Shown piece after piece: positions 1,081-32,280 of a DNA stretch of 32,280 nt. The translations under genes and the position numbers were made by a program. This DNA is from Cladochytrium replicatum. Its lineage: Eukaryota > Chytridiomycota > Chytridiomycetes > Cladochytriales > Cladochytriaceae. Under the pieces are notes generated by a model that saw only the letters and a list, made by a program, of their open reading frames with translations, made no database searches and was not told where the DNA came from. Every line of letters starts with the position of its first letter. The first letter of the stretch is position 1. The DNA lies in NCBI GenBank assembly GCA_025526935.1, contig JAHLKD010000165.1, forward strand, positions 1 to 32,280. Direction: 5' to 3'.

Positions 1081-1615
1081 GAAGCTGTGGTATGGCCGGA
1101 GAGGAAGTTGAGATCCACTATCTATAGCAGGAAGACCCTGTGGCCAGGTCTTGCCCTGATAACCCCCGGGGTGGCAGAGAAGCTTGTTATCAAGGTGTAT
1201 GGTTGGTGGAGATTTTGGACAAACAAATACAAAGAATCAGTTCTCTACACCAGTAGCATGCTCTAGCCCACGAAATCAAAGGAGTCTCTCCCAACAGCAT
1301 CATCGCCTAACCCATGAAATGAAAAGACTTAGTGAAAAATCCACCTACAAGAGAGATTGAGATAGCATGAATTACAGTTGAAGCAGAATAAATTGCATCT
1401 GGAAGGTCCGTCCATGGTTAATAAAAATGGGTTGGACGGTCCATCCGCGCCTAATAAAAACGCGTTGGACGGTCCGTCCGCGCCTAATAAAAACGCGTTG
1501 GACGGTCCGTCCGTGGCTAATAAATTCGAGGTGGACGGTCCGTCCGCATTTAATAAATTCGCGTCGGACGGTCCGTCCGAATGTTATTAACATTCCGGCT
1601 TGGAATAACTGTTAG
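1081..1615 (-). mobile_element. Terminal module of the OrsD-type element, copy A
   Basis: This stretch matches 9995-10510 closely but imperfectly, ending in both copies at the same point (TAACTGTTAG). Beyond that point the flanks differ: here hAT codon 41 onward, there hAT codon 97. That makes the shared 3' boundary an element end. The last 40 bp hold two hairpins, the 17-bp odd palindrome GAATGTTATTAACATTC (1580-1596) and ATTCC-GGCTT-GGAAT (1593-1607). Inside lies an array of six GGACGG-T-CCGTCC dyads. The AG at 1614-1615 occurs in the target too, so the boundary is ambiguous by 2 bp. The element class is not clear; hairpins near an end recall Helitrons, but the CTRR end is not matched. Confidence 0.6.
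1401..1578. repeat. 33-bp tandem array of GGACGG-T-CCGTCC palindromes
   Basis: Six dyads start at 1401, 1434, 1467, 1500, 1533 and 1566, exactly 33 bp apart. Each is a 13-bp odd palindrome; the first two carry one mismatch. Spacers are AT-rich (AATAAA core). Position close to the element end suggests protein-binding sites, by analogy with subterminal repeats of other DNA transposons. Open reading frames on both strands across this array are a by-product of the 33-bp (multiple of 3) period. Confidence 0.75.
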
Positions 1616-1636
1616 GCGTCCAGCGAGGGGAACATC

Positions 1637-3931
1637 ATGCAGGACAAACGCAGACGTGTATCAGGACACAGTGGCAACAACAGCGCTCGAGAGCCGAGCT
1701 CCACATCTTCTTCCAATGACTCCAGCGAGTTTGGCCCGGCTTCTCAGCATGCACCAGAGCTTCCTGCCGACGTTAGTTTTGCTGACTCTTCAGTGCGACA
1801 GGAGCCTGCAGCTGGATCAGTTCAACCATCAATGCTTTCATCAGACGCAGATGTTGATAGCATGTCGGACTGTAGAGGTAGTCGAGGCGGCATAGCGAAG
1901 GATTACTATAAGGTTGATAATGGTCTGAGAACATGTTTGGTTGCGAAATGCAAGTGGAGCCAGAAGGTCGATAAGACGGGATCAACAAAAAACTTCCTCC
2001 GGCATCTGAAAAACCACCATGGAAGTATTGCCAGGTCGCTTGGACTGTTGGACATCGTCCCCAAGGGACAACAGACATTGAATTTTGGCTCGCAGGAGAA
2101 GGAGCAAAACTTTGTGTTCAATCCAGACGTAGCGTGGCGGTCGATTTTGGACTGGATTGCTGCAGACAATCAGGCTTTTACTGTTGTGGAGAACGAGTTC
2201 TTTGTCAGCATGCTGAAGACTTTTCAGCCAAACTATACACCAAAGACGGCAAAAGCAGTGAAGCAAAAGGAGATGGATCTTTACGATAGGCAGAAGGAGC
2301 TCATTAAAGGTCTGATTGTTGGTTCGCCTTCAAAAGTATCAATAACAGCTGACTGTTGGACATCGAAGAACCAGATTTCTTTTCTTGGAATTACTGCCCA
2401 CTTCATCACGAAAGAATGGGAGCCGCAGGACTTGCTGCTGCAGATGATTCCGATGGTTGGAAAGCATGAAGGCGTCGCCATGGCTAGTCAGCTTGTCAAG
2501 TGTCTGGATGAATTTGGCATGCTATCGGGTGAACGCTTATTGTGCATTACAACCGACAACGGTTCAAACAACTTTACCATGAGTGCTAAGCTGGAGACGC
2601 TCTTGGAAGATAGGGATATTGCGTGGTCTGCAGAAACTCAACACATGCGGTGTATGGCACACATTATCAATCTTGCAGCAAAGGATTTTATCGATACATT
2701 CGCGCCCGCAGGGGACACAGTCGCAAATGACGATAACTCCGGCGTTAATGTCATAAACCTTCTTCGACGGCTAGTCAGAGGAATCCGGTCTTCCCCAAAA
2801 CGACGAAGCTCATTTATTGATTCGTGCCGATTTGTGAAACTGGTTCCTCTATTACCAATTATCGATGTGACAACTCGCTGGAATAGCACGTTCTATATGG
2901 TCAAACGAGCCTTACAGCTACGAGAGGCAATGGACAAAATATGCTGGATTGAAGATTCTTTGAAAGATTGGTCAATAAATCCAAAGCAATGGGAGGTCCT
3001 ACAGAAGATCCGGGATGGTTTGAGTGTTTTCGAGGTTATATCAAAGGCAATCGAAGGGTCTAGATATCCAACACTTCCGCTTGTTATTCCATTTTACAAC
3101 GATCTTATCGATCAACTGGAGGACCTAGAGGATGCAGAATTAGATGAAACTTTCACCAAAGCATTTCGAAATGCACTAGAGAAGCTGAGAATATATTACT
3201 CAATCGCTAAGAGCCCGTGTTTAGCAGTTGCTACGGTACTCGATCCTCGTTTTAAGGATCAATATTATCGATTTTCAAAGGCTTGGGAGAAAGATGTAGG
3301 AAGGGATCAGGTCACCCTAGTGCGGAAAGTCTGGGAGGAATCGTATAAGTCACGGAAAATCAAGAACAGTGGTGCCGATGTTTTTGGAAACACGCCAGAA
3401 CGTCGACACGATTCGAGCGGAGCTTCCGGTGATAGACAGAAAAAAACGGACGCTGAACGCTTGAGAGCCATTAGATCCGTTTTCATCTGGCAAGAAGAGA
3501 TTCCTGAGGAAAAAGATGAGCTGGATCGCTATCTTGGCGATCAGGTACTCCGCGGTATTGATTCTGATGGGAAGCCAATCAATATTATGGACTGGTGGAA
3601 GACCGTTGGAAGTGTGAACTTTCCAGCCCTAAGCCAGATGGCAATGGACTATTTAGGAATACCAGCAACAAGCGCTCCAGTCGAACGAAAGTTTTCAGCC
3701 GGGGTTGATTTGGTACCTGCAACTCGCAACCGCCTTGCTCCAAGAACAATAAATGCGTTGATGTGCCGTCATGACTGGTTGCATCAATTGAGTGCTGAAG
3801 AACCGTTCAAAAATGATTCCCTAGATTCAAAAAGTGATGTTAGTGAGGATTTTGTAAAGGTGCATAATTTTGGCGAGGATTTTGATGTGGTATTAGAGTT
3901 GGAAGCAACTGATGATAACCCACTCTTTTAA
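1637..3931 (+). CDS. hAT-superfamily transposase with BED finger, copy A
   Basis: 764 codons, uninterrupted. A BED-type finger spans about residues 85-130 (Cys100, Cys105, His123, His127/128). RNase-H-like core residues are visible: Asp239 in ITADCWTS, Asp307 in CITTDNGSNN and Glu683 in SAPVERKFS, the last inside the C-terminal hAT dimerisation region (about 630-710, with DWWKTVG). hAT transposases cut and paste DNA with 8-bp target duplications. The other copies start 47 codons upstream (MDAAFVKPKRKAA...). Here that part is replaced by the OrsD-type module and a TAG precedes GCG TCC in frame, so Met 1637 is the first usable start. The lost segment contains the basic stretch KPKRKA, a possible nuclear localisation signal. 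The catalytic body looks intact; whether it is expressed without its own 5' end is unknown. Confidence 0.88.
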   Translation: MQDKRRRVSGHSGNNSAREPSSTSSSNDSSEFGPASQHAPELPADVSFADSSVRQEPAAGSVQPSMLSSDADVDSMSDCRGSRGGIAKDYYKVDNGLRTCLVAKCKWSQKVDKTGSTKNFLRHLKNHHGSIARSLGLLDIVPKGQQTLNFGSQEKEQNFVFNPDVAWRSILDWIAADNQAFTVVENEFFVSMLKTFQPNYTPKTAKAVKQKEMDLYDRQKELIKGLIVGSPSKVSITADCWTSKNQISFLGITAHFITKEWEPQDLLLQMIPMVGKHEGVAMASQLVKCLDEFGMLSGERLLCITTDNGSNNFTMSAKLETLLEDRDIAWSAETQHMRCMAHIINLAAKDFIDTFAPAGDTVANDDNSGVNVINLLRRLVRGIRSSPKRRSSFIDSCRFVKLVPLLPIIDVTTRWNSTFYMVKRALQLREAMDKICWIEDSLKDWSINPKQWEVLQKIRDGLSVFEVISKAIEGSRYPTLPLVIPFYNDLIDQLEDLEDAELDETFTKAFRNALEKLRIYYSIAKSPCLAVATVLDPRFKDQYYRFSKAWEKDVGRDQVTLVRKVWEESYKSRKIKNSGADVFGNTPERRHDSSGASGDRQKKTDAERLRAIRSVFIWQEEIPEEKDELDRYLGDQVLRGIDSDGKPINIMDWWKTVGSVNFPALSQMAMDYLGIPATSAPVERKFSAGVDLVPATRNRLAPRTINALMCRHDWLHQLSAEEPFKNDSLDSKSDVSEDFVKVHNFGEDFDVVLELEATDDNPLF

Positions 3932-3963
3932 ATATAAATTGTTGTTTAGACTGTTCATGTGTT

Positions 3964-5578
3964 GAAGTACCGTCCAGGAGTTGAGAAAGCGACCGCCTGG
4001 ACAGAATCCTATTACAAGTAGTATTTGTAGAGAGGTTGGTTGTACTTGATCGAGATCAGTGAAGTATCAGTGAAGTACCGTCAATGAGTTGAGAAAGTGT
4101 CCGGGTGGACAGAATCTTATTGCTAGTAACACTATTAGAGAGGTTAGCTGTACTTGATAGAGATCACTGAAGTACCGTCAATGAGTTGAGAAAGTGTCCG
4201 GGTGGACAGAATCCTATTGCTAGTAACATTGATAGAGAGGTTAGTTGTATTGGGTAGAGATCACTGAAGTACCGTCAATGAGTTGAGAAAGTGTCCGGGT
4301 GGACAGAATCGTATTGCTAGTAGTATTTGTAGAGAGGTTAGCTGTACCTGATAGAGATTACTGAAGTACCGTCAATGAGTTGAGAAAGTGTCCGGGTTGA
4401 CAGAATCGTATTGCAAGTAACATTGATAGAGAGGTTAGCTGTATTGGGTAGAGATAACTGAAGTACGTCAATGAGTTGAGAAAGTGTCCGGGTGGACAGA
4501 ATCTTATTGCTAGTAACATTGATAGAGATATTAGTTTGTACTTGATAGAGATCACTCAAGTACCGTCAATGAGTTAAGAAAGTGTCCGGGTGGACAGAAT
4601 CTTATTGCTAGTAACATTGATAGAGAGGTTAGCTGTACTTGATAGAGATCACTGAAGTACGTCAATGAGTTGAGAAAGTGTCCGGGTGGACAGAATCGTA
4701 TTGCTAGTAACATTGATAGAGAGGTTAGTTGTATTGGGTAGAGATCACTGAAGTACCGTCAATGAGTTGAGAAAGTGTCCGGGTGGACAGAATCCTATTG
4801 CTAGTAGTATTTGTAGAGAGGTTAGCTGTACCTGATAGAGATTACTGAAGTACCGTCAATGAGTTGAGAAAGTGTCCGGGTGGACAGAATCGTATTGCTA
4901 GTAACATTGATAGAGAGGTTAGCTGTATTGGGTAGAGATAACTGAAGTACGTCAATGAGTTGAGAAAGTGTCCGGGTGGACAGAATCTTATTGCTAGTAA
5001 CATTGATAGAGATGTTAGTTTGTACTTGATAGAGATCACTCAAGTACCGTCAATGAGTTAAGAAAGTGTCCGGGTGGACAGAATCTTATTGCTAGTAACA
5101 TTGATAGAGATGTTAGCTGTACTTGATAGAGATCACTGAAGTACCGTCAATGAGTTGAGAAAGTGTCCGGGTGGACAGAATCCTATTGCTAGTAACATTG
5201 ATAGAGAGGTTAGTTGTATTGGGTAGAGATCACTGAAGTACCGTCAATGAGTTGAGAAAGTGTCCGGGTGGACAGAATCGTATTGCTAGTAGTATTTGTA
5301 GAGAGGTTAGCTGTATTGGGTAGAGATCACTGAAGTACGTCAATGAGTTGAGAAAGTGTCCGGGTGGACAGAATCGTATTGCTAGTAACATTGATAGAGA
5401 GGTTAGTTGTATTGGGTAGAGATCACTGAAGTACCGTCAATGAGTTGAGAAAGTGTCCGGGTGGACAGAATCCTATTGCTAGTAGTATTTGTAGAGAGGT
5501 TAGCTGTACCTGATAGAGATTACTGAAGTACCGTCAATGAGTTGAGAAAGTGTCCGGGTGGACAGAAATCTGGGAGAC
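3964..5578 (+). repeat. 97-bp satellite array within the hAT element, about 17 units
   Basis: Units of about 97 bp, each with the core GAGAAAGTGTCCGGGTGGAC. Cores lie near 3993 (diverged), 4098, 4195, 4292, 4389, 4485, 4583, 4679, 4777, 4874, 4970, 5067, 5165, 5262, 5358, 5456 and 5553. Each core is a hairpin, TGTCC-GGGT-GGACA. Variant units (AGTAGTATTTGTAG; ACCTGATAGAG) recur about 485 bp apart, a five-unit higher-order repeat. The corresponding array of the inverted copy (28861-29330) has only about 5 units, so the array has expanded or contracted. Short reading frames here are repeat artefacts. Confidence 0.92.
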
Positions 5579-5850
5579 TGAGTGTCACTGTGTCTGTCTG
5601 GGTAGAATAGGATTCTGTCCCCCCGGACACTTTCTCAACTCATTGACGGTACTTCAGTAATTTCTATCAGGTACAGCTAACCTCTCTATTAATGTTACTA
5701 GCAATAAGATTCTGTCCACCCGGACACTTTCTCAACTCATTGACGGTACTTCAGTGATCTCTATCAAGTACAGCTAACCTCTCTATCAATTTTACTAGCA
5801 ATAAGATTTCTGTCCACCCGGACAGAATCCTCTCTATCAATGTTACTAGC
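5579..5850 (-). repeat. Inverted satellite units facing the main array
   Basis: After a spacer (5579-5605, GGGAGACTGAGTGTCACTG) the same 97-bp unit appears in reverse orientation (CTGTCC..CCGGACACTTTCTCAAC) for two to three units. It ends at 5805-5830 in a near-perfect palindrome, arms GATTTCTGTCC and GGACAGAATC around ACCC. Copy B has the same switch at 28840-28865. Direct and inverted units together could fold into a large cruciform. Confidence 0.88.
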
Positions 5851-5991
5851 CAGTTTCTTCCCTAGCTTATTATTATTTTCAGATCGGGTAGAAAACTATA
5901 GTGTCAGGGAAGTATTATAGCATACATTCCTGTAACATTCCGGCTAAGAACACCGGGCCAGTATCTTCCCACGACAAACAGTACAAACACC
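5851..5991 (+). promoter_or_regulatory. Leader of the second hAT-element ORF
   Basis: About 140 bp between the inverted satellite and the ATG at 5992, conserved in copy B (28442-28580). It contains TATTATTATTTTCAG, which could act as a splice acceptor, and a 13-mer TAACATTCCGGCT (5933-5945) also present at the end of the OrsD-type module (1588-1600). The promoter role is inferred from position only. Confidence 0.3.
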
Positions 5992-7674
5992 ATGCCTCGA
6001 ACTACAAAGAAGCGAGCGTTAAAACAATCCAGACCATCATCTGAAAGAGAATCAAGTGCAGAACCTGTGACTGCACCTGAAACATCTCTGGCATCGGGTT
6101 CTGAAGTGGAAGCAGAAGAAGTTGGCCTTGATGTCAAATCGACAGATGTCAAATCGACAGCTCCTTCAAAGAAACCGGCGCGACGTGGTACTAAAGGGGA
6201 TGCTGACTATTTGCTCATCGACGGACTCTGTCCTGCTTCAGACATACGACTTTGGTATCGAAAATTCAAAGCGAGCGGCCACAGCTACGACTCGGAGGCC
6301 TTCATCAGCAACTGTCAAACAAATCGTGATGAATGCGGCCCAAGATTTGTTCTTCAAGGGTTGATCGACTGACTTAACTCTGACAGCAAGCTAGTTCGTC
6401 AAGCCCTGAACGAAATTCACGATGAATGCAGTGGACGAACGGAGTTCATAACAGCAGCAAACGCCTATCGTATGGAGTGCTTGAAAAGCTCTTCCTTTCA
6501 GAAGGAAACAACATTTCTGGACTTTTACAGGCGGCAGGGACACAAGTACGGCATTTACAGAGGAATGCCCGTCACTGCAAAGGTTGATGAGTTCCAAGCG
6601 ACCATCAAACGAGCAGATGAGGACCGTGAAAGGACAAAACAGGTCCTCAAACAGTCAGAACGACTGTTGAACATGACAAAAGATCTTGAAGAGACTGCAA
6701 TGAACGAGAGAAGGACCCGCATCGCAGCAGAAGTGCGAGAGAAGGCTCTCATTGATGAATTGGGCAGGGCGGGTGCATTGATTCAGCACGGCGAGCACGA
6801 AGAGCTAGCAAGATTCAGGGAGATCACCGCTGCAATGGAAAGGGAGAAGCAGGCAACTTCCCAGGAGATTTCACAATGGAAATCACGTGTGACCGCCCTG
6901 GAGGGAGAGCTTGCTGCTCTGAAACGACAGGCTGGTCATTCAGAAGCTGCAGCACCTGCGGCGCCAACATCAACAGGCGGCCTAATAAGCATATCGTCGG
7001 CTATCAAGGGGATTGGTAGAATTCCGAAGGTACATCGAACCAGTTCTCCAACGAGTTCCCTTGCATTGCTTAGCCTGCAGCAGCATCGTCGTACGGCTAT
7101 CCTTTTGGTGAAAGAGGTCATCCAGGGTATCTGCTTCCAGATGCATAAGATCAATGAGGTTATTTATGACCTTAAATTGCCGTCTCTTCCACCAGCAATC
7201 AAGTACGTCAATGTAAACTACGAAGTCCTCTCCCGAAATGAGTTTTTACGGCCCATATTTGTTGAATCAGACGACCGCTCAAGCCGAATATCAACTTCAA
7301 GTAGCAGTTCTCGGAGCAGCCTTACTCTTCTTAGGGTGCACATTTTGCTCGGAAACTGGATACGGCACAATAATTCGCTAAGTATGTCTGCCACTATCTA
7401 TCGCATGTTCAGGGCATTAGTGGATGCATATCCTTCTGAGTGGCTAAGGTTCTGGACGGCATACATCGGGCATCTTTCGTCCATAACGCTCCCTGAGGTG
7501 GATTGGAAACCTTGGAAGACAGGTTTAGCCAAGGATTTCATGCTTTCAAATGACGACATTGATCGGTTCATCAGGACTGGGTTGGCGAAGGACGTAACCA
7601 GTGGTGGATGGGACTCTGACGATATGAACCAGATACAGAAGCTGATTTGGGCTGTTCCACCTATCAACTTGTGA
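5992..7674 (+). pseudogene. Second ORF of the hAT element (coiled-coil protein), copy A, one nonsense codon
   Basis: 561 codons in one frame with a single internal stop at codon 127 (TGA, 6370-6372), where copy B has CGA. I do not recognise the family. Residues 1-70 are basic and Ser/Glu-rich (MPRTTKKRALK). About 75-160 looks folded (LWYRKFKASGHSYDS). About 195-315 is a long charged coiled coil (FQATIKRADEDRERTKQVLK). Beyond it come a Ser-rich linker and a Trp-rich C-terminus (WLRFWTAYIGH, WKPWKTGLAKDF). No catalytic motif is visible. Conservation of place in both large element copies suggests it is an element gene. Accessory DNA binding, multimerisation or targeting would be plausible by analogy with two-gene DNA transposons, but this is inference. 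A start at Met 6472 would give a 400-residue product downstream of the stop. Confidence 0.75.
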
Positions 7675-7974
7675 TTGCTCAGTGGAGTTTTGTTTCTTTT
7701 TACGATAGTGTTTCTAAAATACACACTGTCCACACAGACACAAAGTGTTCATGTAAATATCCGTGGTCTAACTCAAAATTCAATCAATCCTCTCCTGGGC
7801 AGCAAAAACCCGGCGGGTCAGGGTCGGGTACGGGTTTCAACCACTTCGGGTCCGGGTATTCCCTTTGTACCCGTCAGTGACCCGGCGGGTCCCCAGACAA
7901 ACACGACCCGACCCAAAGGGTTTGGTGCGGGTCGCCACTGAAACCCGGACCCGACCCGGACCCGCCGAACCTTA
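7675..7974 (+). repeat. Right subterminal region and terminal inverted repeat of hAT copy A
   Basis: 3' flank of the second ORF, then clustered GGGTCGGGT/ACCCGACCC blocks from 7805. The outer end, read inward from 7974 on the minus strand, is TAAGGTTCGGCGGGTCCGGG. It agrees with YARNG and with the left end at 11529. If it is the true end, the 8-bp target duplication next to it would be TCGACAAC (7975-7982). Confidence 0.65.
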
Positions 7975-8589: not shown

Positions 8590-9380
8590 ACTCGCATGCG
8601 GGTATGGTATCACGTAACCCTTGGGCTCGAGCTACAGATCTGGACCTCGAGTAGCTAAACTCACGGCCCCTGGGGTGGGATCCAGTACGGATTCTTACCT
8701 GCTCGCCAGACTCGGTATACCAACATCGATGTACTTCTTGTGGGTATGGTATCACGTAACCCTTGGGATCGAGGTACAGATCTGGACCTCGAGTAGCTAA
8801 ACTCACGGCCCCTGGGGTGGGATCGGGTACGGATTCTTACCTGCTCGCCAGACTCGGTATACCAACATCAATGTACTTCTATTCCGCTTGTATGAGGCAC
8901 TACTCGCATGCGGGTATGGTATCACGTTAACTTTTGGGATCGAGGTACAGATCTGGACCTCGAGTAGCTAAACTCACGCGACCCCTGGGGTAGGATCGGG
9001 TACGGATTCTTACCTGCTCGCCAGACTCGGTATACCAACATCGATGTGCTTCTATTCCGCTTGTATGACGCGCTACTCGCATGCGGGTGTGGTATCACGT
9101 AACCCTTGGGATCAAGGTACAGATCTGGACCTCGAGTAGCTAAACTCACGGCCCCTGGGGTGGGATCGGGTACGGATTCTTACCTGCTCGCCAGACTCGG
9201 TATGCCCCCATCGACGTACTTCTATTCCGCTTGTATGAGGCGCTACTCGCATGCGGGTATGGTATCACGTTAACTTTTGGGATCGAGGTACAGATCTGGA
9301 CCTCGAGTAGCTTAACTCACGCGACCCCTGGGGTAGGATCGGGTACGGATTCTTACCTGCTCGCCAGACTCGGTATACCA
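8590..9380. repeat. Tandem repeat, five units of about 146-171 bp
   Basis: Units share GGTATGGTATCACGT, a block with AGATCTGGACCTCGAGTAGC and the end GCTCGCCAGACTCGGTATACC. Starts lie near 8596, 8739 (shorter unit, lacking GCATGC), 8908, 9079 and 9249. Units 3 and 5 share the variant CGTTAACTTTTGGG while 1, 2 and 4 have CGTAACCCTTGGG. This alternation implies a two-unit higher-order pattern. The sequence is unrelated to the 97-bp satellite. Reading frames across it are repeat artefacts. Confidence 0.85.
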
Positions 9381-9994
9381 AAAGTGGCCTTCTTCATCTA
9401 TTTGGCTTGTATGGGGTGCCAGTCGCGCGCGAGCGCGGTTGAGCCGGAAACCAACTCCAAAGTTTGCGAGGTACGGACCTCGCGAAGTCGCGTGACTCAT
9501 AGTACCCAGTTGGAACCACTTTCCCGCGTGCAAGAGCAGGACAGAAGAACAGCTACTCCACATTGAAACTGCCGTGTTTCCTCTACATTCACCCGAACCA
9601 AATTAACTTCTACACTGCGCAGATGCAATCGATGTCAGACCCTATCCATATTCCGCGGACATTGCGCCGTTCTGAGTTGTCTGAGTCGGAATTGGTTCGC
9701 GGTTCAGTCTGAATCTGTCTGTCTTTTAACTGACCCTATCGTACAGGAGGGAAATTCCGTGCCTTTACTTGAAAAAGATTGCCTACTTCGTGCCACATCC
9801 ACCCATTGTCATGCAGCATACGCGATGAAGTCCCTTCTCTTCCTATATCTACAAAATACGGAAAAGTTTACAGAGCTTGCTCGAATTTGCCGTGGTCTTT
9901 TTCAGCTTCAAGAAGATGTTACTCTGCTGTCCGAAACTTTCTCAGATCATGGATGCCACTTTCTGGACTTCGCTGTTTGGAAATACCCTCGAGA
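9381..9994. other. No recognised gene
   Basis: About 600 bp between the tandem repeat and the second OrsD-element module. Short frames occur on both strands (for example 9759-10082 plus) without recognisable motifs. A GC-rich stretch at 9420-9500 (GTCGCGCGCGAGCGCGG) stands out locally. Probably decayed mobile DNA. Confidence 0.4.
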
Positions 9995-10510
9995 AGCTGT
10001 GGTATGGACACGGAGAGGGAGGTGGGATCCACTATCTATAGCAGGAAGACCCTGTGGTCTGGCCTTGCCTCTGGTTTCCTGACAAGGATATCTCCCGTTG
10101 TGGCTGAGAAGCTTGTTATCGCGGTGTAAGGTTGGTGGAGATTTTGGACAATCAAATACAAAGAATCAGTTCTCTACTCCAGTAGCATGCTCTTGCCCAC
10201 GAAATCAAAGGACTCTCGCCCAACAGCATCATCGCTCGGCCCATGAAATGAAAAGACTTAGTGAAAAACCAGCTACAAGAGAGACTGAGGTAGCATGAAT
10301 TACAGTTGAAGCCGAATAAATTGCATCTGGAAGGTCCGTCCATGATTAATAAAAATGGGTTGGACAGTCCGTCCGCGCCTAATAAAAACGCCTTGGACGG
10401 ACCGTCCGACGCGAATTTATTAAATGCGGACGGACCGTCCACCTCGAATTTATCAGCCACGGACGGTCCGTCCGAATGTTATTAACATTCCGGCTTGGAA
10501 TAACTGTTAG
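9995..10510 (-). mobile_element. Terminal module of the OrsD-type element, copy B
   Basis: Similar to 1081-1615 over its whole length, with substitutions and small indels, ending in the same hairpins and TAACTGTTAG. The gene is missing: sequence left of 9995 does not match copy A, so this is a truncated copy. Dyads start at 10329, 10362, 10395, 10428 and 10461, one fewer than in copy A, and two spacer units lie in inverted order. Its end abuts a hAT fragment at codon 97. Confidence 0.6.
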
Positions 10511-10802
10511 AGTCAGCAAAACTAACGTCGGCAGGAAGCTCTGGTGCATGCTGAGAAGCCAGGCGCAACTCGCTGGAGTCATTGGAAGAAGATGTGGAGC
10601 TCGGCTCTCGAGCGCTGTTGTTGCCACCATGTCCTGATACACATCTGCGTTTGTCCTGCATGCTGTTCCCCTTGCTGGACGCCTCTGAAATTTGGGGGGC
10701 TGGCAGACTTCGCTTCCATGTGTCAAGCAGATGACTGTCCACCAGTCTTTGGCTTGTGTCGGACGCTGCCTTACGCTTTGGTTTAACAAAGGCAGCGTCC
10801 AT
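10511..10802 (-). pseudogene. hAT transposase 5' fragment, copy C
   Basis: First 97 codons of the transposase (MDAAFVKPKRKAASDTSQRL at its start), nearly identical to the start of copy B at 31775. It stops within LPADVSFADS where the OrsD-type module begins. The BED finger and catalytic core are absent, so it is inactive. It shows the natural N-terminus missing from copy A. Confidence 0.8.
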
Positions 10803-11228
10803 TTTTGCTGTGGTGTGGCTGGAACGTTACTGACTCTAAGCAAGTGCACAAAGCACAGCTCTCGAGGTCTGTCGTGGTAGAAATTGTTTGTTACAGAACT
10901 TCCATTGTGACTTCTTGGAAAGTGTCCGGGTGGACAGAATCGTATTGCTAGTAACATTGATAGAGATGTTAGTTTGTACTTGATAGAGATCACTCAAGTA
11001 CTGTCAATGAGTTAAGAAAGTGTCAGGGTGGACAGAATCTTATTGCTAGTAACATTGATAGAGAGGTTAGCTGTACTTGATAGAGATCACTGAAGTACCG
11101 TCAATGAGTTAAGAAAGTGTCTGGGTGGACAGAATCTTATTGCTAGTAACATTGATAGAGTGGTTAGTTGTACTTGATAGAGATCACTGAAGTATTGTCA
11201 ATGAGTTGAGAAAGTGTCCAGTGGACAG
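10803..11228 (+). repeat. 5' satellite units of hAT copy C
   Basis: After the transposase start (leader 10803-10915, also seen at 31776-31890) come four satellite units with cores near 10921 (TGTCCGGGTGGACA), 11020, 11117 and 11213; the later ones are mutated. Relative to the transposase they run opposite to the 3' array, so the gene is framed by inverted arrays. Confidence 0.8.
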
Positions 11229-11594
11229 AAAATACATGCCTCGATGTCTGTTGTGATGCAAATTGTTTGATACATACAAAACTTATATTGCGTCTTCTTG
11301 GAAAGTGTCCGTGTGGACAGAAAGAACAATAGCTTCGTTTTAGCTTCCCTATCACTTCGGGTTTTACTCAGGTCTGATTTTTGACCTGAGAAGGGTTTTC
11401 CTACTGGACCCAATACCCGACCCGGATCCGACCTGAGAATTTTACATGAAAATCCGGCACTCGGGTCGGGTACATTTGGTCAATGGACCCGGACCCGACC
11501 CGAAAGACCCTAAAACCCGCCGATCCTTAGATCGGGTACATTTTGTCAATGGACCAGAACCTGATCCAAAGATGCAAAACCCAGCGGATCCTTA
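11229..11594 (-). repeat. Left terminus of hAT copy C with duplicated 65-bp end
   Basis: Contains one more diverged dyad (TGTCCGTGTGGACAG, about 11306) and then GGGTCGGGT-type subterminal blocks. Read inward on the minus strand, TAAGGATCGGCGGG begins at 11529 and TAAGGATCCGCTGGG at 11594. Both are followed by GGTCCATTGAC and AATGTACCCGA, so the end is present twice in tandem, 65 bp apart. The inner one matches the right end at 7974 best. Together these define the element ends. Confidence 0.6.
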
Positions 11595-24490: not shown

Positions 24491-26531
24491 TTGGATCTTC
24501 TTTTGAGACATCTGTGTCGACAACACAGTTTTGAGGAGATCGAGTATAGAGACAAGGTTTCTACATCTTCTGGACTGCTGAGATTTTTGACGATGTCATC
24601 AGGAACACAAAAGCATGAGTGGGTTGTTTTGAATGGTACGAATTATCCAGCATTTCGAAACAGTTATCGTAGACTTGCGAGAAAAGAGAAATGGACTAAC
24701 AAGGAAGATATTAATGACATTCTTGGATACGTTGAAGAAGATTATGTTGATATAATTCAAGGAGTTGTCAATGATGTAGTGCGAGCGCAACAGATAGAGC
24801 GAAAGCACAGGCTGGAGGTCTAGGACCTACAACACCTGGTGGATCTACTGTTATTCCTACTATCCCATATGACGATAATGATGTGAATTGTTTTGGTACT
24901 AATTAGATACGATCTTCAAACATAAAGACCTACTTGGGATGATGTTAAGTCATTATCAATGGTTGCTGGAGAATCAGCTACTGGGTTTGTAACCAGGTTC
25001 GAGAGATTGATGAAATCTATTGGAAATACCATTGCTGGCGATCAATATTGACTTCTCAAAGAATTCTTACTTCATGACGTTTCATTGTATAAGAATGTTT
25101 TAGCAATTTTGAAACGAAAAAGAATGAGGAGAAGAATACAACTTATGATCAGCCAAAAAAGCTGCATTTTCAGAGTAAGTTGATGAAAATGATAAGATCA
25201 ATGATGAGAGGAAGAAAATTGATATACGTTCTGTTAGTCAAATGCCTCCTTTACGTCAAAACAGTAGTTTGACGCCATTAATTAGTATTGAGTAATTAAG
25301 CCTAATGGGACTAATTGTAATGTTCACTCTCAACCTTGACCAATTCCTGGTGTTAGGTCCACCAGTTACTAAAGAATTCTTCGAAGTTATGTCATCATTA
25401 GAGAAAAGAATGACAGAATTGAATTTGAATCTGCTGAAAATTCAGAGGAAACACAACCTATTGTGAATAATTATAGTTCTACAATTCAAATTCCTATTAA
25501 GAGACAACAGAATGAGCAGTGTGCTCGTGTGAGACAAATTGAGACTTCAAAGAAACACATGAAGAACGCTTGTGAGCATTTAACGAGATAAGAATGAAGG
25601 AAAGATTGCCATTGGAGAAGATAATCATATTTATCACCCTGGAGAAGGTGATTATGTTGGAGAAAAAGTTAAGCCTAACGGGAAACAAGGTGGCATGAAA
25701 GCATTTATTGATGCAAGATATGGAACTACTATTACTGGATTAAGCACTATCGCATCAATTTCTATTCAAAATAGGTATGAGGGAAATGTAAATTCAATAA
25801 AAGTCAAAACGGAAATACATTGGGGAGAAGTTGATTCCAAACGTACTTGGCGTCAACATGATGACCCAAAAGAAGACACTTCACAAACCAATAAAAAGAT
25901 GAAAAGAAAGAAGGTATACAAAACCCAGAAATTCTTGTAGATGAAAAAAATAAGGCCGAAAAAATTACACCTAAACGGATTTTAAGGTCGAAAACCATAC
26001 CCAAAGAAGATAAGATTATAGAGATTGCGTCAGATAAGAAGAATTCTCTTGTTATTAATGAAATTTCAGATCCAATGGATTCTGATCATGCCTTAGTTGA
26101 TGGAGAAACTCAAACTGATGCAAAAATTAAGAAACCTCGACAATTTCGTAGATCATCTGAAATAGAAGATGATCTTGATGCACTTCTTGAAAGTATACTT
26201 GATATGAAATCTCCTTTATCTATTCGAGAAACAATTGCACATATTCCTGACCACAGAAGCAAACTTCTGAATAAAATGAAGCAAAAGAGAATTCCTTTTG
26301 AAAAAATTGAAGAGATTTTGCAAGATGAAGAGAGTAAGATTGTGAATTCAATCTCATCGAGTGTAGAGGAATTACTTCCAAACAAAGCCAAGAGCACAAT
26401 TTAGGCAAACAATACATTAACGTTAAAGAAGTCGTCAATTACTGATAATGAACTTGGAGATGGCACTTATAGAGTATCCTCAGTATCTTCAGAGAATTCT
26501 CCAGAATTGCAAGGGAAACATGCTTCTGTCT
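24491..26531 (+). pseudogene. Decayed Ty3/gypsy gag region
   Basis: AT-rich stretch with many stops and frameshifts. From Met 24593 a Gag-like start is readable (EWVVLNGTNYPAFRN, DILGYVEEDYVDIIQ). At about 25,540-25,700 the sequence recalls a zinc-knuckle tail (HMKNACEHL) followed by NEGKIAIGEDNHIYHPGEG, then GGMKAFIDARY, as in fungal gypsy polyproteins. At 26,075-26,404 SPLSIRETIAHIPDHRSKLL matches the segment that precedes the protease in such elements. Reverse transcriptase and integrase are absent: the element is cut at 26531/26532 by hAT copy B. Non-functional. Confidence 0.6.
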
Positions 26532-26761
26532 GTGTTTGTCTGGGGACCCGCCGGGTCACTGACGGGTACAAAGGGAATACCCAGACCCGAAGTGGTTGAA
26601 ACCCGTACCCGACCCTGACCCGCCAGGTTTTTGCTGCCCAGGAGAGGATTGATTGAATTTTGAGTTAGACCACGGATATTTACATGAATACTTTGTGTCT
26701 GTGTGGACAGTGTGTATTTTAGAAACACTATCGTAAAAAGAAACAAAACTCCACTGAGCAA

Positions 26762-28441
26762 TCACAAGTTGATAGGTGGAACAGCCCAAATCAGCTTCTG
26801 TATCTGGTTCATATCGTCAGAGTCCCATCCACCAATGGTTACGTCCTTCCCCAACCCAGTCCTGATGAACCGATCGATGTCGTCATTTGAAAGCATGAAA
26901 TCCTTGGCTAAACCTGTCTTCCAAGGTTTCCAATCCACCTCAGGGAGCGTTATGGACGAAAGATGCCCGATGTATGCCGTCCAGAACCTTAGCCACTCAG
27001 AAGGATATGCATCCACTAATGCCCTGAACATGCGATAGATAGTGGCAGACGTACTTAGCGAATTATTGTGCCGTATCCAGTTTCCGAGCAAACGTGCACC
27101 CTAAGAAGTGTAAGGCTGCTCCGAGAACTGCTACTTGAAGTTGATATTCGGCTTGAGCGGTCGTCTGATTCAACAAATATGGGCCGTAAAACTTCATTTC
27201 GGGAGAGGACTTCGTAGTTTACATTGACGTACTTGATTGATGGTGGAAGAGACGGCAATTTAAGGTCATAAATAACCTCATTGATCTTATGCATCTGGAA
27301 GCAGATACCCTGGATGACCTCTTTCACCAAAAGGATAGCCGTACGACGATGCTGCTGCAGGCTAAGCAATGCAAGGGAACTCGTTGGAGAACTGGTTCAA
27401 TGTACCTTCGGAATTCTACCAATCCCCTTGATAGCCGACGATATGCTTATTAGGCCGCCTGTTGATGTTGGCGCCGCAGGTGCTGCAGCTTCTGAATGAC
27501 CAGCCTGTCGTTTCAGAGCAGCAAGCTCTCCCTCCAGGGCGGTCACACGTGATTTCCATTGTGAAATCTCCTGGGAAGTTGCCTGCTTCTCCCTTTCCAT
27601 TGCAGCGGTGATCTCCCTGAATCTTGCTCTCTTCGTGCTCGCCGTGCTGAATCAATGCACCCGCCCTGCCCAATTCATCAATGAGAGCCTTCTCTCGCAC
27701 TTCTGCTGCGATGCGGGTCCTTCTCTCGTTCATTGCAGTCTCTTCAAGATCTTTTGTCATGTTCAACAGTCGTTCTGACTGTTTGAGGACCTGTTTTGTC
27801 CTTTCACGGTCCTCATCTGCTCGTTTGATGGTCGCTTGGAACTCGTCAACCTTTGCAGTGACGGGCATTCCTCTGTAAATGCCGTACTTGTGTCCCTGCC
27901 GCCTGTAAAAGTCCAGAAATGTTGTTTCCTTCTGAAAGGAAGAGCTTTTCAAGCACTCCATACGATAGGCGTTTGCTGCTGTTATGAACTCCGTTCGTCC
28001 ACTGCATTCATCGTGAACTTCGTTCAGGGCTTGACGAACTAGCTTGCTGTCAGAGTTAAGTCGGTCGATCAACCCTTGAAGAACAAATCTTGGGCCGCAT
28101 TCATCACGATTTGTTTGACAGTTGCTGATGAAGTCCTCCGAGTCGTAGCTGTGGCCGCTCGCTTTGAATTTTCGATACCAAAGTCGTATGTCTGAAGCAG
28201 GACAGAGTCCGTCGATGAGCAAATAGTCAGCATCCCCTTTAGTACCACGTCGCGCCGGTTTCTTTGAAGGAGCTGTCGATTTGACATCTGTCGATTTGAC
28301 ATCAAGGCCAACTTCTGCTTCTTCCACTTCAGAACCCGATGCCAGAGATGTTTCAGGTGCAGTCACAGGTTCTGCACTTGATTCTCTTTCAGATGATGGT
28401 CTGGATTGTTTTAACGCTCGCTTCTTTGTAGTTCGAGGCAT
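26762..28441 (-). pseudogene. Second ORF of the hAT element (coiled-coil protein), copy B, three disabling changes
   Basis: Same protein as at 5992-7674. The first 270 or so codons are intact and have Arg where copy A has its stop at codon 127. Then come a 2-bp deletion near 27629, a CGA-to-TGA stop at 27399-27397, and a 1-bp deletion near 27090. Because the lesions differ from copy A, comparison shows what the undamaged frame of about 560 codons was. The N-terminal basic segment, coiled coil and Trp-rich C-terminus are otherwise nearly identical. Confidence 0.78.
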
Positions 28442-28589
28442 GGTGTTTGTACTCTTTGTCGTGGGAAGATACTGGCCCGGTGTTCTTAGCCGGAATGTTA
28501 CAGGAATGTATGCTATAATACTTCCCTGACACTATAGTTTTCTACCCGATCTGAAAATAATAATAAGCTAGGGAAGAAACTGGCTAGTA

Positions 28590-28860
28590 ACATTGATAGA
28601 GAGGATTCTGTCCGGGTGGACAGAATCTTATTTGCTAGTAAAATTGATAGAGAGGTTAGCTGTACTTGATAGAGATCACTGAAGTACCGTCAATGAGTTG
28701 AGAAAGTGTCCGGGTGGACAGAATCTTATTGCTAGTAACATTAATAGAGAGGTTAGCTGTACCTGATAGAAATTACTGAAGTACCGTCAATGAGTTGAGA
28801 AAGTGTCCGGGGGGACAGAATCCTATTCTACCCAGACAGACACAGTGACACTCAGTCTCC
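28590..28860 (+). repeat. Inverted satellite units, hAT copy B
   Basis: Equivalent of 5579-5850. Begins with a palindrome at 28606-28629 with 10-bp arms GATTCTGTCC and GGACAGAATC around GGGT, then two units, then the spacer containing CAGTGACACTCAGTCTCCC. Confidence 0.85.
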
Positions 28861-29330
28861 CAGATTTCTGTCCACCCGGACACTTTCTCAACTCATTGAC
28901 AGTACTTCAGTAATCTCTATCAGGTACAGCTAACCTCTCTACAAATACTACTAGCAATAGGATTCTGTCCACCCGGACACTTTCTCAACTCATTGACGGT
29001 ACTTCAGTGATCTCTACCCAATACAACTAACCTCTCTATCAATGTTACTAGCAATAGGATTCTGTCCACCCGGACACTTTCTCAACTCATTGACGGTACT
29101 TCAGTGATCTCTATCAAGTACAGCTAACCTCTCTAATAATGTTACTAGCAATAAGATTCTGTCCACCCGGACACTTTCTCAACTCATTGACGGTACTTCA
29201 CTGATACTTCACTGATCTCGATCAAGTACAACCAACCTCTCTACAAATACTACTTGTAATAGGATTCTGTCCAGGCAGTCGCTTTCTCAAATCCTGGACG
29301 GTACTTCAACAGATGAACAGTCTAAACAAC
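28861..29330 (-). repeat. 97-bp satellite array, hAT copy B, about 5 units
   Basis: Units read in the transposase direction, ending 10 bp after the transposase stop. The unit nearest the transposase is the diverged CGACTGCCTGGACAG type, as in copy A (3993). Five units here against about 17 in copy A. Confidence 0.88.
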
Positions 29331-29339
29331 AATTTATAT

Positions 29340-31775
29340 TTAAAAGAGTGGGTTATCATCAGTTGCTTCCAACTCTAATACCACATCAAAATCCTCGCCA
29401 AAATTATGCACCTTTACAAAATCCTCACTAACATCACTTTTTGAATCTAGGGAATCATTTTTGAACGGTTCTTCAGCACTCAATTGATGCAACCAGTCAT
29501 GACGGCACATCAACGCATTTATTGTTCTTGGAGCAAGGCGGTTGCGAGTTGCAGGTACCAAATCAACCCCGGCTGAAAACTTTCGTTCGACTGGAGCGCT
29601 TGTTGCTGGTATTCCTAAATAGTCCATTGCCATCTGGCTTAGGGCTGGAAAGTTCACACTTCCAACGGTCTTCCACCAGTCCATAATATTGATTGGCTTC
29701 CCATCAGAATCAATACCGCGGAGTACCTGATCGCCAAGATAGCGATCCAGCTCATCTTTTTCCTCAGGAATCTCTTCTTGCCAGATGAAAACGGATCTAA
29801 TGGCTCTCAAGCGTTCAGCGTCCGTTTTTTTCTGTCTATCACCGGAAGCTCCGCTCGAATCGTGTCGACGTTCTGGCGTGTTTCCAAAAACATCGGCACC
29901 ACTGTTCTTGATTTTCCGTGACTTATACGATTCCTCCCAGACTTTCCGCACTAGGGTGACCTGATCCCTTCCTACATCTTTCTCCCAAGCCTTTGAAATT
30001 CGATAATATTGATCCTTAAAACGAGGATCGAGTACCGTAGCAACTGCTAAACACGGGCTCTTAGCGATTGAGTAATATATTCTCAGCTTATCTAGTGCAT
30101 TTCGAAATGCTTTGGTGAAAGTTTCATCTAATTCTGCATCCTCTAGGTCCTCCAGTTGATCGATAAGATCGTTGTAAAATGGAATAACAAGCGGAAGTGT
30201 TGGATATCTAGACCCCTCGATTGCCTTTGATATAACCTCGAAAACACTCAAACCATCCCGGATCTTCTGTAGGACCTCCCATTGCTTTGGATTTATTGAC
30301 CAATCTTTCAAAGAATCTTCAATCCAGCATATTTTGTCCATTGCCTCTCGTAGCTGTAAGGCTCGTTTGACCATATAGAACGTGCTATTCCAGCGAGTTG
30401 TCACATCGATAATTGGTAATAGAGGAACCAGTTTCACTAATCGGCACGAATCAATAAATGAGCTTCGTCGTTTTGGGGAAGACCGGATTCCTCTGACTAG
30501 CCGTCGAAGAAGGTTTATGACATTAACGCCGGAGTTATCGTCATTTGCGACTGTGTCCCCTGCGGGCGCGAATGTATCGATAAAATCCTTTGCTGCCAGA
30601 TTGATAATCTGTGCCATACACCGTATGTGTTGAGTTTCTGCAGACCATGCAATATCCCTATCTTCCAAGAGCGTCTCCAGCTTAGCACTCATGGTAAAGT
30701 TGTTTGAACCGTTGTCAGGTTGTAATGCACAATAAGCGTTCACCCGATAGCATGCCAAATTCATCCAGACACTTGACAAGCTGACTAGCCATGGCGACGC
30801 CTTCATGCTTTCCAACCATCGGAATCATCTGCAGCAGCAAGTCCTGCGGCTCCCATTCTTTCGTGATGAAGTGGGCAGTAATTCCAAGAAAAGAAATCTG
30901 GTTCTTCGATGTCCAACAGTCAGCTGTTATTGATACTTTTGAAGGCGAACCAACAATCAGACCTTTAATGAGCTCCTTCTGCCTATCGTAAAGATCCATC
31001 TCCTTTTGCTTCACTGCTTTTGCCGTCTTTGGTGTATAGTTTGGCTGAAAAGTCTTCAGCATGCTGACAAAGAACTCGTTCTCCACAACAGTAAAAGCCT
31101 GATTGTCTGCAGCAATCCAGTCCAAAATCGACCGCCACGCTACGTCTGGATTGAACACAAAGTTTTGCTCCTTCTCCTGCGAGCCGAAATTCAATGTCTG
31201 TTGTCCCTTGGGGACGATGTCCAACAGTCCAAGCGACCTGGCAATACTTCCATGGTGGTTTTCAGATGCCGGAGGAAGTTTTTTGTTGATCCCGTCTTAT
31301 CGACCTTCTGGCTCCACTTGCATTTCGCAACCAAACATGTTCTCAGACCATTATCAACCTTATAGTAATCCTTCGCTATGCCGCCTCGACTACCTCTACA
31401 GTCCGACATGCTATCAACATCTGCGTCTGATGAAAGCATTGATGGTTGAACTGATCCAGCTGCAGGCTCCTGTCGCACTGAAGAGTCAGCAAAACTAACG
31501 TCGGCAGGAAGCTCTGGTGCATGCTGAGAAGCCGGGCCAAACTCGCTGGAGTCATTGGAAGAAGATGTGGAGCTCGGCTCTCGAGCGCTGTTGTTGCCAC
31601 TGTGTCCTGATACACGTCTGCGTTTGTCCTGCATGATGTTCCCCTCGCTGGACGCCTCTGAAATTTGGGGGGCTGGCAGACTTTGCTTCCGTGTGTCAAG
31701 CGGATGACTGTCCACCAGTCTTTGGCTTGTGTCGGACGCTGCCTTACGCTTTGGTTTAACAAAGGCGGCGTCCAT
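29340..31775 (-). pseudogene. hAT transposase, copy B, two frameshifts
   Basis: Full-length gene of about 811 codons from ATG 31775, nearly identical to copy A over the shared part and with the 47 N-terminal codons copy A lacks (KPKRKA basic stretch). It carries a 1-bp deletion in an A run near 31257 (AAAA against AAAAA), just after the BED finger His. It also carries a 1-bp T insertion near 30719, exactly at the second catalytic Asp (CITT/DNGSNN). All three catalytic residues remain encoded, in different frames. Non-functional as it stands, but damage is slight, so it decayed recently. Confidence 0.85.
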
Positions 31776-31890
31776 TTTTGCTGTGGTGTGGCTGGAACGT
31801 TACCGACTCTAATGTCCAGGTGCACAGAAAGCACAGCTCTCGAGGTCTGTTGTGGTAGAAATTGTTTGTTACAGAACTTCCGTTGTGACT
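31776..31890 (-). promoter_or_regulatory. Transposase leader region, hAT copy B
   Basis: 115 bp between the start codon and the 5' satellite, shared with copy C (10803-10915). Presumed promoter and leader of the transposase from position; no motif is certain. Confidence 0.35.
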
Positions 31891-32280
31891 TCTTGGAAGT
31901 GTCCGGGTGGACAGAATCGTATTGCTAGTAACATTGATAGAGGTTAGTTGTACTGGGTAGAGATCACTGGAGTACGTCAATGAGTTGAGAAAGTGTCCGG
32001 GTGGACAGAATCGTATTGCTAGTAACATTGATAGAGAGGTAGCTGTATTGGGTAGAGATAACTGAAGTACGTCAATGAGTGAGAAAGTGTCGGGTGGACA
32101 GAATCCTATTGCTAGTAACATTGATGAGAGGTTAGTTGTATTGGGTAGAGATCACTGAAGTACCGTCAATGAGTTGAGAAAGTGTCCGGGGGGACAGAAT
32201 CTTATTGCTAGTAACATTGATAGAGAGGTTAGCTTACTTGATAGAGATCACTGAAGTACCGTCAATGAGTTAGAAAGTGT
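31891..32280 (+). repeat. 5' satellite array of hAT copy B, to window edge
   Basis: Cores near 31902, 31995, 32088 (TGTCGGGTGGACA), 32183 (TGTCCGGGGGGACA) and a start at the edge. Several units have single-base deletions. Orientation is opposite to the 3' array relative to the transposase. Confidence 0.88.

Follow-up and report, generated by a model that had tools for sequence, protein, structure and literature searches.

The element and its copies at the locus

The stretch of DNA analysed here, referred to below as the window, comprises 32,280 nucleotides of contig C165 (JAHLKD010000165.1) of the chytrid Cladochytrium replicatum, the genome of which amounts to 50.5 Mb in 198 contigs. It contains three copies, each of them partial, and no complete copy of a hAT-type transposable element of approximately 6-8 kb, which has two genes between the same ends, i.e., a transposase gene (open reading frame 1, ORF1) and a second gene, designated ORF2. 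The complete element is ordered as the left tip TAAGGATCGGCGGG, a palindrome-bearing satellite, the hAT transposase (811 amino acids, aa), a satellite, an inverted satellite, ORF2 (560 aa), and the right tip CCCGCCGAACCTTA. When the window was compared with itself, the two large copies noted in a preliminary description of this DNA, the second of them inverted, were found to share the order transposase, satellite, inverted satellite, ORF2, and a GGGTCGGGT-rich end, the matching pieces being 99.4% and 97.7% identical. The third copy does provide the left terminus that had been assigned to it at 11529, given that the minus strand reads TAAGGATCGGCGGG from 11529 to 11516.

Complete copies elsewhere in the genome

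The presence of both genes between matching ends, which had been deduced from the window, was proved by copies found elsewhere in the genome. Five 10-kb regions outside the window (L031-L035) were read, and in two of these, L031 and L033, the element is intact from TAAGGATCGGCGGG to CCCGCCGAACCTTA, is flanked by exact 8-bp duplications, and has open frames of 811 codons for the transposase and 560 codons for ORF2. The search proposed at the outset, for intact TAAGG-ended copies with 8-bp duplications and both genes, was thus successful. The satellites of L031 and L033 form a left array on the minus strand and, after the transposase, a plus array and a minus array that precede ORF2; the plus array between the genes has 4 to 16 unit matches across L031-L035. 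Both ends are also present in L034 and L035, without a duplication, and in L032 the left end is not in place. The idea that the satellites and ORF2 might be a distinct element lying beside the hAT was rejected because the duplication-flanked, tip-to-tip copies span both genes, and we consider it practically certain that this is a real two-gene element. The preliminary description was right in its observation and largely so in its interpretation, with the function of ORF2 still hypothetical.

Judged by its sequence matches, ORF1 is a hAT transposase. It matches the family PF05699 (Dimer_Tnp_hAT) with 72.7 bits against a cut-off of 21.4 (E 2.1e-20), both of its Pfam matches are hAT families, and the full-length protein of L033 matches the Hermes transposase in the PDB with an E value of 2.3e-12. 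No relatives of the transposase were found in viral contigs, a collection that is not fungal and is silent on fungal relatives. One copy, L118, had been taken for a diverged transposase, wrongly, given that an unrelated insertion of approximately 0.6 kb (558-1150) inside a near-identical transposase gene had distorted the protein alignment.

Features of the window

The features of the window are listed in Table 1. In copy 1, the transposase frame is without its first 118 nt, so that the ATG at 1637 is an internal Met; this 5' truncation had been overlooked when the gene was taken as it stands from that position. The figure of about 560 codons given for ORF2 holds for other copies, where the frame is open, and had missed the stop codon of the window copy. 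In copy 2, the matching stops 67 bp before the right tip, which is absent, and the left side is lost at the end of the contig.

Table 1. Features of the two-gene hAT element within the window (bp, base pairs; TRF, the tandem repeat search)
Feature	Position	Strand	Basis
Copy 1 of the element, cut short on its 5' side within the transposase gene	1614..7974	+	Self-comparison; complete copies L031/L033
Copy 1 hAT transposase ORF, 764/811 codons, N-terminus lost	1637..3931	+	Pfam Dimer_Tnp_hAT, E 2.1e-20
97-bp satellite array	4066..5567	+	TRF; palindrome counts in L033
Inverted array of the 97-bp satellite unit, 5' of ORF2	5606..5824	-	TRF, self-comparison
ORF2, second gene, 560 codons in other copies; TGA at 6370-6372 (codon 127) here	5992..7674	+	
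Palindrome TGTCCACACAGACA of the right end, at 234 bp from its tip	7727..7740	+	Sequence; equivalent site in L033
Right terminus CCCGCCGAACCTTA	7961..7974	+	Sequence
Copy 3: left tip and its satellite, plus the initial 294 nt of the transposase gene	10509..11529	-	Self-comparison
Left terminus TAAGGATCGGCGGG	11516..11529	-	Sequence, tip pattern
Copy 2, inverted, right part through to the upstream satellite	26528..32280	-	Self-comparison; matches 26528-31657, continues to the window end
Copy 2 ORF2, out of frame from about residue 270 (99.0% identity with L033)	26762..28441	-	
Copy 2 transposase gene with a broken frame (99.3% identity with L033)	29340..31775	-	

Other repeats lie around these copies. 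A repeat with a 33-bp unit, around GGACGGTCCGTCC, occupies positions 1080-1613 and 9992-10510 and abuts the transposase gene where this is truncated in copies 1 and 3, at a different point in each; it may represent an inverted duplication or a further mobile element. Between the same two copies, at 8600-9381, there is a tandem array with units of approximately 142-173 bp, which the self-comparison did not match with the 97-bp satellite. The left tip is doubled in tandem at 11466-11594, approximately 66 bp apart, as if the end had been duplicated. No tRNA genes were found in the window.

Tips, end pairs, and target site duplications

The terminal inverted repeats are short, the 14-bp tips TAAGGATCGGCGGG and TAAGGTTCGGCGGG being identical at 13 of 14 positions and starting with TAAGG. 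Allowing up to two mismatches, the left tip was found at 310 places in the genome and the right tip at 359, against one place for the reversed-pattern control in either case. From the 100 exact places listed per tip, 55 left-right pairs within 15 kb were built, four of which enclose another end, all four with an ORF2 match.

The junctions (40 bases) were read for 30 further large pairs, every one chosen from the pairs with an ORF2 match, and 15 of these have an exact 8-bp duplication, as compared with one of 870 combinations within one mismatch in the mispaired-flank control. Fourteen of these 15 contain a PF05699 place, and both long frames are open in four of them. Overall, exact 8-bp duplications flank 17 of 34 large end pairs, and both frames are open in 6 of these 17 copies, L031 and L033 included. 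Among the small end pairs, 4 of 6 are exact (L038-L041), one (L036) has a single mismatch by eye, and one (L037) has none. The pairs that have no duplication may have arisen through recombination between copies or nested insertion.

The hAT/Ac group has the duplication bias nTnnnnAn, and this bias is seen here in plain counts: of the 21 exact duplications (the 15 above, L031, L033, and L038-L041), 11 have T as their second base and 15 have A as their seventh.

Two observations on the flanks stand on their own. The junction flank CGAGAGAA, found in L076 and L105, is ORF2 sequence, a sign of insertion into the ORF2 of another copy. The copies at G000:C8:8080-13990 and G000:C23:465000-470910 have an equal length of 5911 bp and a common right-end flank, which suggests a duplicated chromosome segment or an exchange; the C8 copy lies 8 kb from the start of its contig.

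ORF2 as a regular component of the element

The lists of gene matches comprise the best 59-150 places, and the gene counts are therefore lower bounds. When the 55 end pairs were compared with the 150-place ORF2 list, a match was found inside 40, and 13 of the 15 pairs without a listed match were read (C6:264420-274117 and C24:500934-511680 being the unread pairs). Twelve of the 13 contain ORF2 sequence, whole or partly deleted, the exception being L039. ORF2 sequence, whole or partly deleted, is thus present in 52 of 53 examined end pairs, or in 48 of 49 when the four pairs with an inner end are excluded, and it therefore behaves as core content of the element.

The same was seen from the side of the transposase. 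A 68-aa ORF2 match lies downstream, on the same strand, in 45 of the 59 listed near-full transposase genes, one of these matches being 11 kb away and perhaps belonging to another copy. Three of the other 14 genes, no more than 2.5 kb away from where their contigs end, were left unread; nine of the 11 that were read keep part or all of ORF2, in some cases just its first 200-270 nt. L111 and L114 have no ORF2, yet have no right end either in the stretch read, and L121 has no ORF2 before the end of its contig. Among the end pairs and transposase copies read, no two-ended copy with a near-full transposase was free of ORF2 sequence.

Two copies that have ORF2 alone share the tips of the element, are flanked by exact duplications, and have long frames of 559 (L038) and 595 codons (L041), and L038-L041 look like deletion derivatives of the element rather than a separate element, the deletions in L037 and L038 having probably occurred between like-oriented satellite arrays. 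The preliminary description had named two findings that would speak against it, i.e., full-length copies consistently without ORF2, and ORF2 as a separate element with its own ends. Neither was encountered in the copies read, several of which have ORF2 partly deleted, and the ORF2-only copies bear the same ends as the others. In L112, ORF2 is split by approximately 2.4 kb of other sequence with element positions 5766-5771 on both sides, as in an insertion with a target duplication.

Selection on ORF2

The substitutions in ORF2 were scored relative to L033, as shared (in at least two copies) or private (in one), and were compared with permutations that preserve the base change and the CpG context. 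The set of all copies omits L001, L006, L009, and L015, which are repeats of refetched places, and, given that L001-L030 had been fetched by ORF2 similarity, which biases the test on this set, a second set was formed from the copies not so chosen. In all copies, 35 of 83 shared changes are silent, as compared with 24.7 expected, a value reached in 18 of 2000 permutations, and the ratio of non-synonymous to synonymous change is 0.58, while the 256 private changes have a ratio of 0.89. The test of this ratio, which the preliminary description had proposed, thus gave a twofold answer, in which the shared substitutions are modestly depleted in amino-acid changes, with a ratio of about 0.6, and the private ones look neutral, a pattern that modestly supports selection on ORF2. 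As shared changes are not independent of ancestry, this signal is a support rather than a proof. The ratio for ORF1 is 0.90 on 23 shared changes, which are too few rows to have any power.

These values also bear on a further reading of ORF2, i.e., that it is a functionless fragment of another repeat, trapped once and multiplied in a burst. In its favour, the listed copies are nearly identical, so that one recent burst might have spread whatever sequence had been trapped, the private substitutions look neutral, and the shared signal is modest. On the other hand, the 560-codon frame stays open in many copies and the shared, older substitutions are those depleted for amino-acid changes, and we regard such a dead hitch-hiker as very improbable.

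The ORF2 protein

The composition of ORF2 agrees in part with the basic N-terminus and Trp-rich C-terminus that had been described, given that residues 1-70 have 14 K/R against 11 D/E, a weak excess, and that 7 of its 9 Trp residues lie within 431-560. A profile search was run, as had been proposed, and matches to the HlyD, SMC, and phage scaffold families were weak, confined to the helical region, and taken as coiled-coil noise. No relatives were found in viral contigs or prokaryote genome contigs, collections that are not fungal and are silent on fungal relatives, and there was no match to Myb-like proteins. A comparison also excluded ORF1 and ORF2 as mutual duplicates. The structure predicted from the single sequence of copy 2, the frame of which is out of register past about residue 270, has a confident helix at approximately residues 200-260 and low confidence elsewhere, and the C-terminal part has no confidence. 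In codon usage, ORF2 correlates best with ORF1 among the five genes compared (r 0.46), a weak sign.

Palindromic sites and satellite arrays

L033 contains 29 TGTCC-N4-GGACA sites (up to one mismatch), all of them within the element, as compared with 0.33 expected in shuffles, so that the palindromes are far above chance. They lie mostly in the tandem arrays, one per 97-bp unit in L033, and three are outside full units: one near the left tip, one 37 bp before the transposase start, and one near the right tip. The 14-bp cores of these three sites, which were picked by that pattern, agree with the array consensus at 12 of 14 positions, and their 45-bp flanks agree at 9-16 of 45. Their placement relative to the tips is regular, the left palindrome starting at element position 210-211 in all seven copies measured and the end of the right palindrome being 234 bp away from its tip in six of seven, L039 having lost it.

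Like-oriented arrays precede both genes in L031-L035. This arrangement, together with the palindrome nearest to the transposase start in L033, would suit a reading in which ORF2 is a regulator of the element, a repressor or an anti-silencing factor that would control the promoters, as TNPA does in its regulatory capacity, and is not part of the transposition complex; the open frames and exact duplications of the ORF2-only copies (L038 and L041) also favour it. The promoters on which it depends are putative, and we consider this reading improbable.

A proposed role for ORF2

In the best explanation overall, to which we give a probability of approximately 0.5, the hAT element is of the autonomous type, has multiplied recently, and has two genes of its own, of which ORF2 would encode an accessory protein at the palindromes. 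ORF2 would be a gene of the element kept by selection, and its product, most likely a dimerising or multimerising accessory protein, would act with the TGTCC-N4-GGACA sites, which are placed as arrays 5' of both genes and between the genes, plus once approximately 210-235 bp inside each tip. It may bind these palindromes, directly or jointly with the transposase, and would thereby help join the two ends and tune the two promoters, as does TNPA in maize En/Spm. Cutting and joining at the tips by the transposase is established for hAT elements, and the transposase here would do the same at the TAAGG tips. The function of ORF2, its dimerisation, and its binding to palindromes are parts that we infer; that it has a function for the element is quite probable, and that it works at the palindromes is more tentative, a little short of an even chance.

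Several observations weigh against this explanation. Nothing links ORF2 directly to DNA or to the palindromes. It has no relatives in Pfam, NCBIfam, PHROGs, or the PDB beyond coiled-coil noise, and its heptad pattern does not reach significance, being equalled in 66 of 1000 shuffles. In the set of copies not chosen by ORF2 similarity, the shared changes are borderline, 26 of 64 being silent against 19.2 expected (97 of 2000 permutations, ratio 0.63), and the 201 private changes have a ratio of 1.07. An earlier run with four fewer loci had given 24 of 55 silent changes against 16.5 expected (20 of 1000), so that the added copies weakened the signal. The 29 palindromes belong for the most part to repeats of a single tandem unit, a structure outside the shuffle model, and their count overstates the independent evidence, while the flank of the left site is approximately 80% like the sequence after the last array unit, which makes it a relative of the array, not an independent site. 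The right ends of L039 and L040 are just 144 and 84 bp, without the right palindrome, yet both copies have exact duplications, which speaks against the right palindrome being required in cis; they may, though, have been deleted after insertion.

A further point of this kind concerns the transposase itself. Through their own BED fingers, hAT transposases are able to bind repeats that are subterminal and in part palindromic, as those of Hermes do with quasi-palindromic subterminal repeats (PMC10368747), and the BED finger of the transposase would be a serious rival as the binder of the palindromes, and the main one. If so, the palindromes would serve the transposase and ORF2 could be a passenger, i.e., a captured host or foreign gene that is useful to itself or to the host and dispensable for movement. 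Its lack of similarity to known families would fit this origin, and ToxhAT does move an effector gene in wheat-pathogen fungi (PMC12506042). A passenger is less expected, however, in nearly all of the examined end pairs, with modest constraint on its shared substitutions and with the codon usage closest to that of ORF1, and we consider this alternative rather unlikely. A stronger form of the accessory-protein explanation is doubtful to a similar extent: this would be an obligate two-protein hAT system parallel to En/Spm, in which ORF2, an unrelated TNPA-like palindrome binder, would assemble the ends and control both promoters, with the arrays as an expandable platform.

Comparison with known elements and implications

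Ac, Hermes, and Tol2, the best-studied members of the hAT superfamily, are known as one-protein elements. The element described here resembles Ac, hobo, Hermes, and Tol2 in the C-terminal hAT dimerisation domain and Hermes match of its transposase, the TAAGG tips, the 8-bp duplications, and their nTnnnnAn bias. It differs in its internal palindrome satellite arrays, in its size of approximately 6-8 kb, as compared with the 2.5-5 kb given for hAT elements (PMC3942097), and in its second gene, given that a transposase is usually the one product encoded by hAT, mariner, and Mutator elements, a second ORF being a feature of Harbinger and CACTA (PMC4423477). One gene per element is a usual trait of hAT, not a strictly defining one, and the regular ORF2 (52 of 53 examined end pairs) departs from it. 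No hAT element with a regular second gene was described in the titles and abstract openings surveyed, those on chytrid hAT elements included, a coverage that leaves out most subscription journals and does not establish absence from print.

CACTA elements have CACTA tips, a 3-bp duplication, and a TNPD/Tnp2 transposase, by which the element here would not be one of them. It shares with En/Spm (TNPA, TNPD) the two element proteins and the repeated sites near the ends, where TNPA binds the subterminal repeats and regulates the element (PMC2613891), but the ends, the duplication length, and the transposase are those of a hAT (TAAGG tips, 8-bp duplication), and the two genes are separate frames rather than splice forms. 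ORF2 would be TNPA-like in role and presumably unrelated to TNPA.

The second ORFs of Harbinger elements are Myb-like, and ORF2 has no such match. PIF/Harbinger elements usually have a second ORF next to that of the transposase (PMC2528002, PMC4423477), but their transposase is another one and their duplications are of 3 bp, mostly TAA or TTA (PMC2528002). Some Mutator groups are also tabulated with two ORFs, one of them of unknown function (PMC6446971), a likeness set against another transposase superfamily and other tips. ToxhAT, hAT-type by name, likewise moves an extra gene, which in that case encodes an effector and belongs to a unit of 14 kb (PMC12506042). By contrast, the second gene described here accompanies almost all of the end pairs examined, in a single genome that has hundreds of tips.

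If this is true, the regular second gene and the palindrome arrays of this hAT element would mean that the two-protein plan arose again in this superfamily. The family is young, with near-identical copies and with naturally occurring deletions in one gene or the other, and could serve to test what an accessory gene does; ORF2 represents, for annotation, an unknown protein family.

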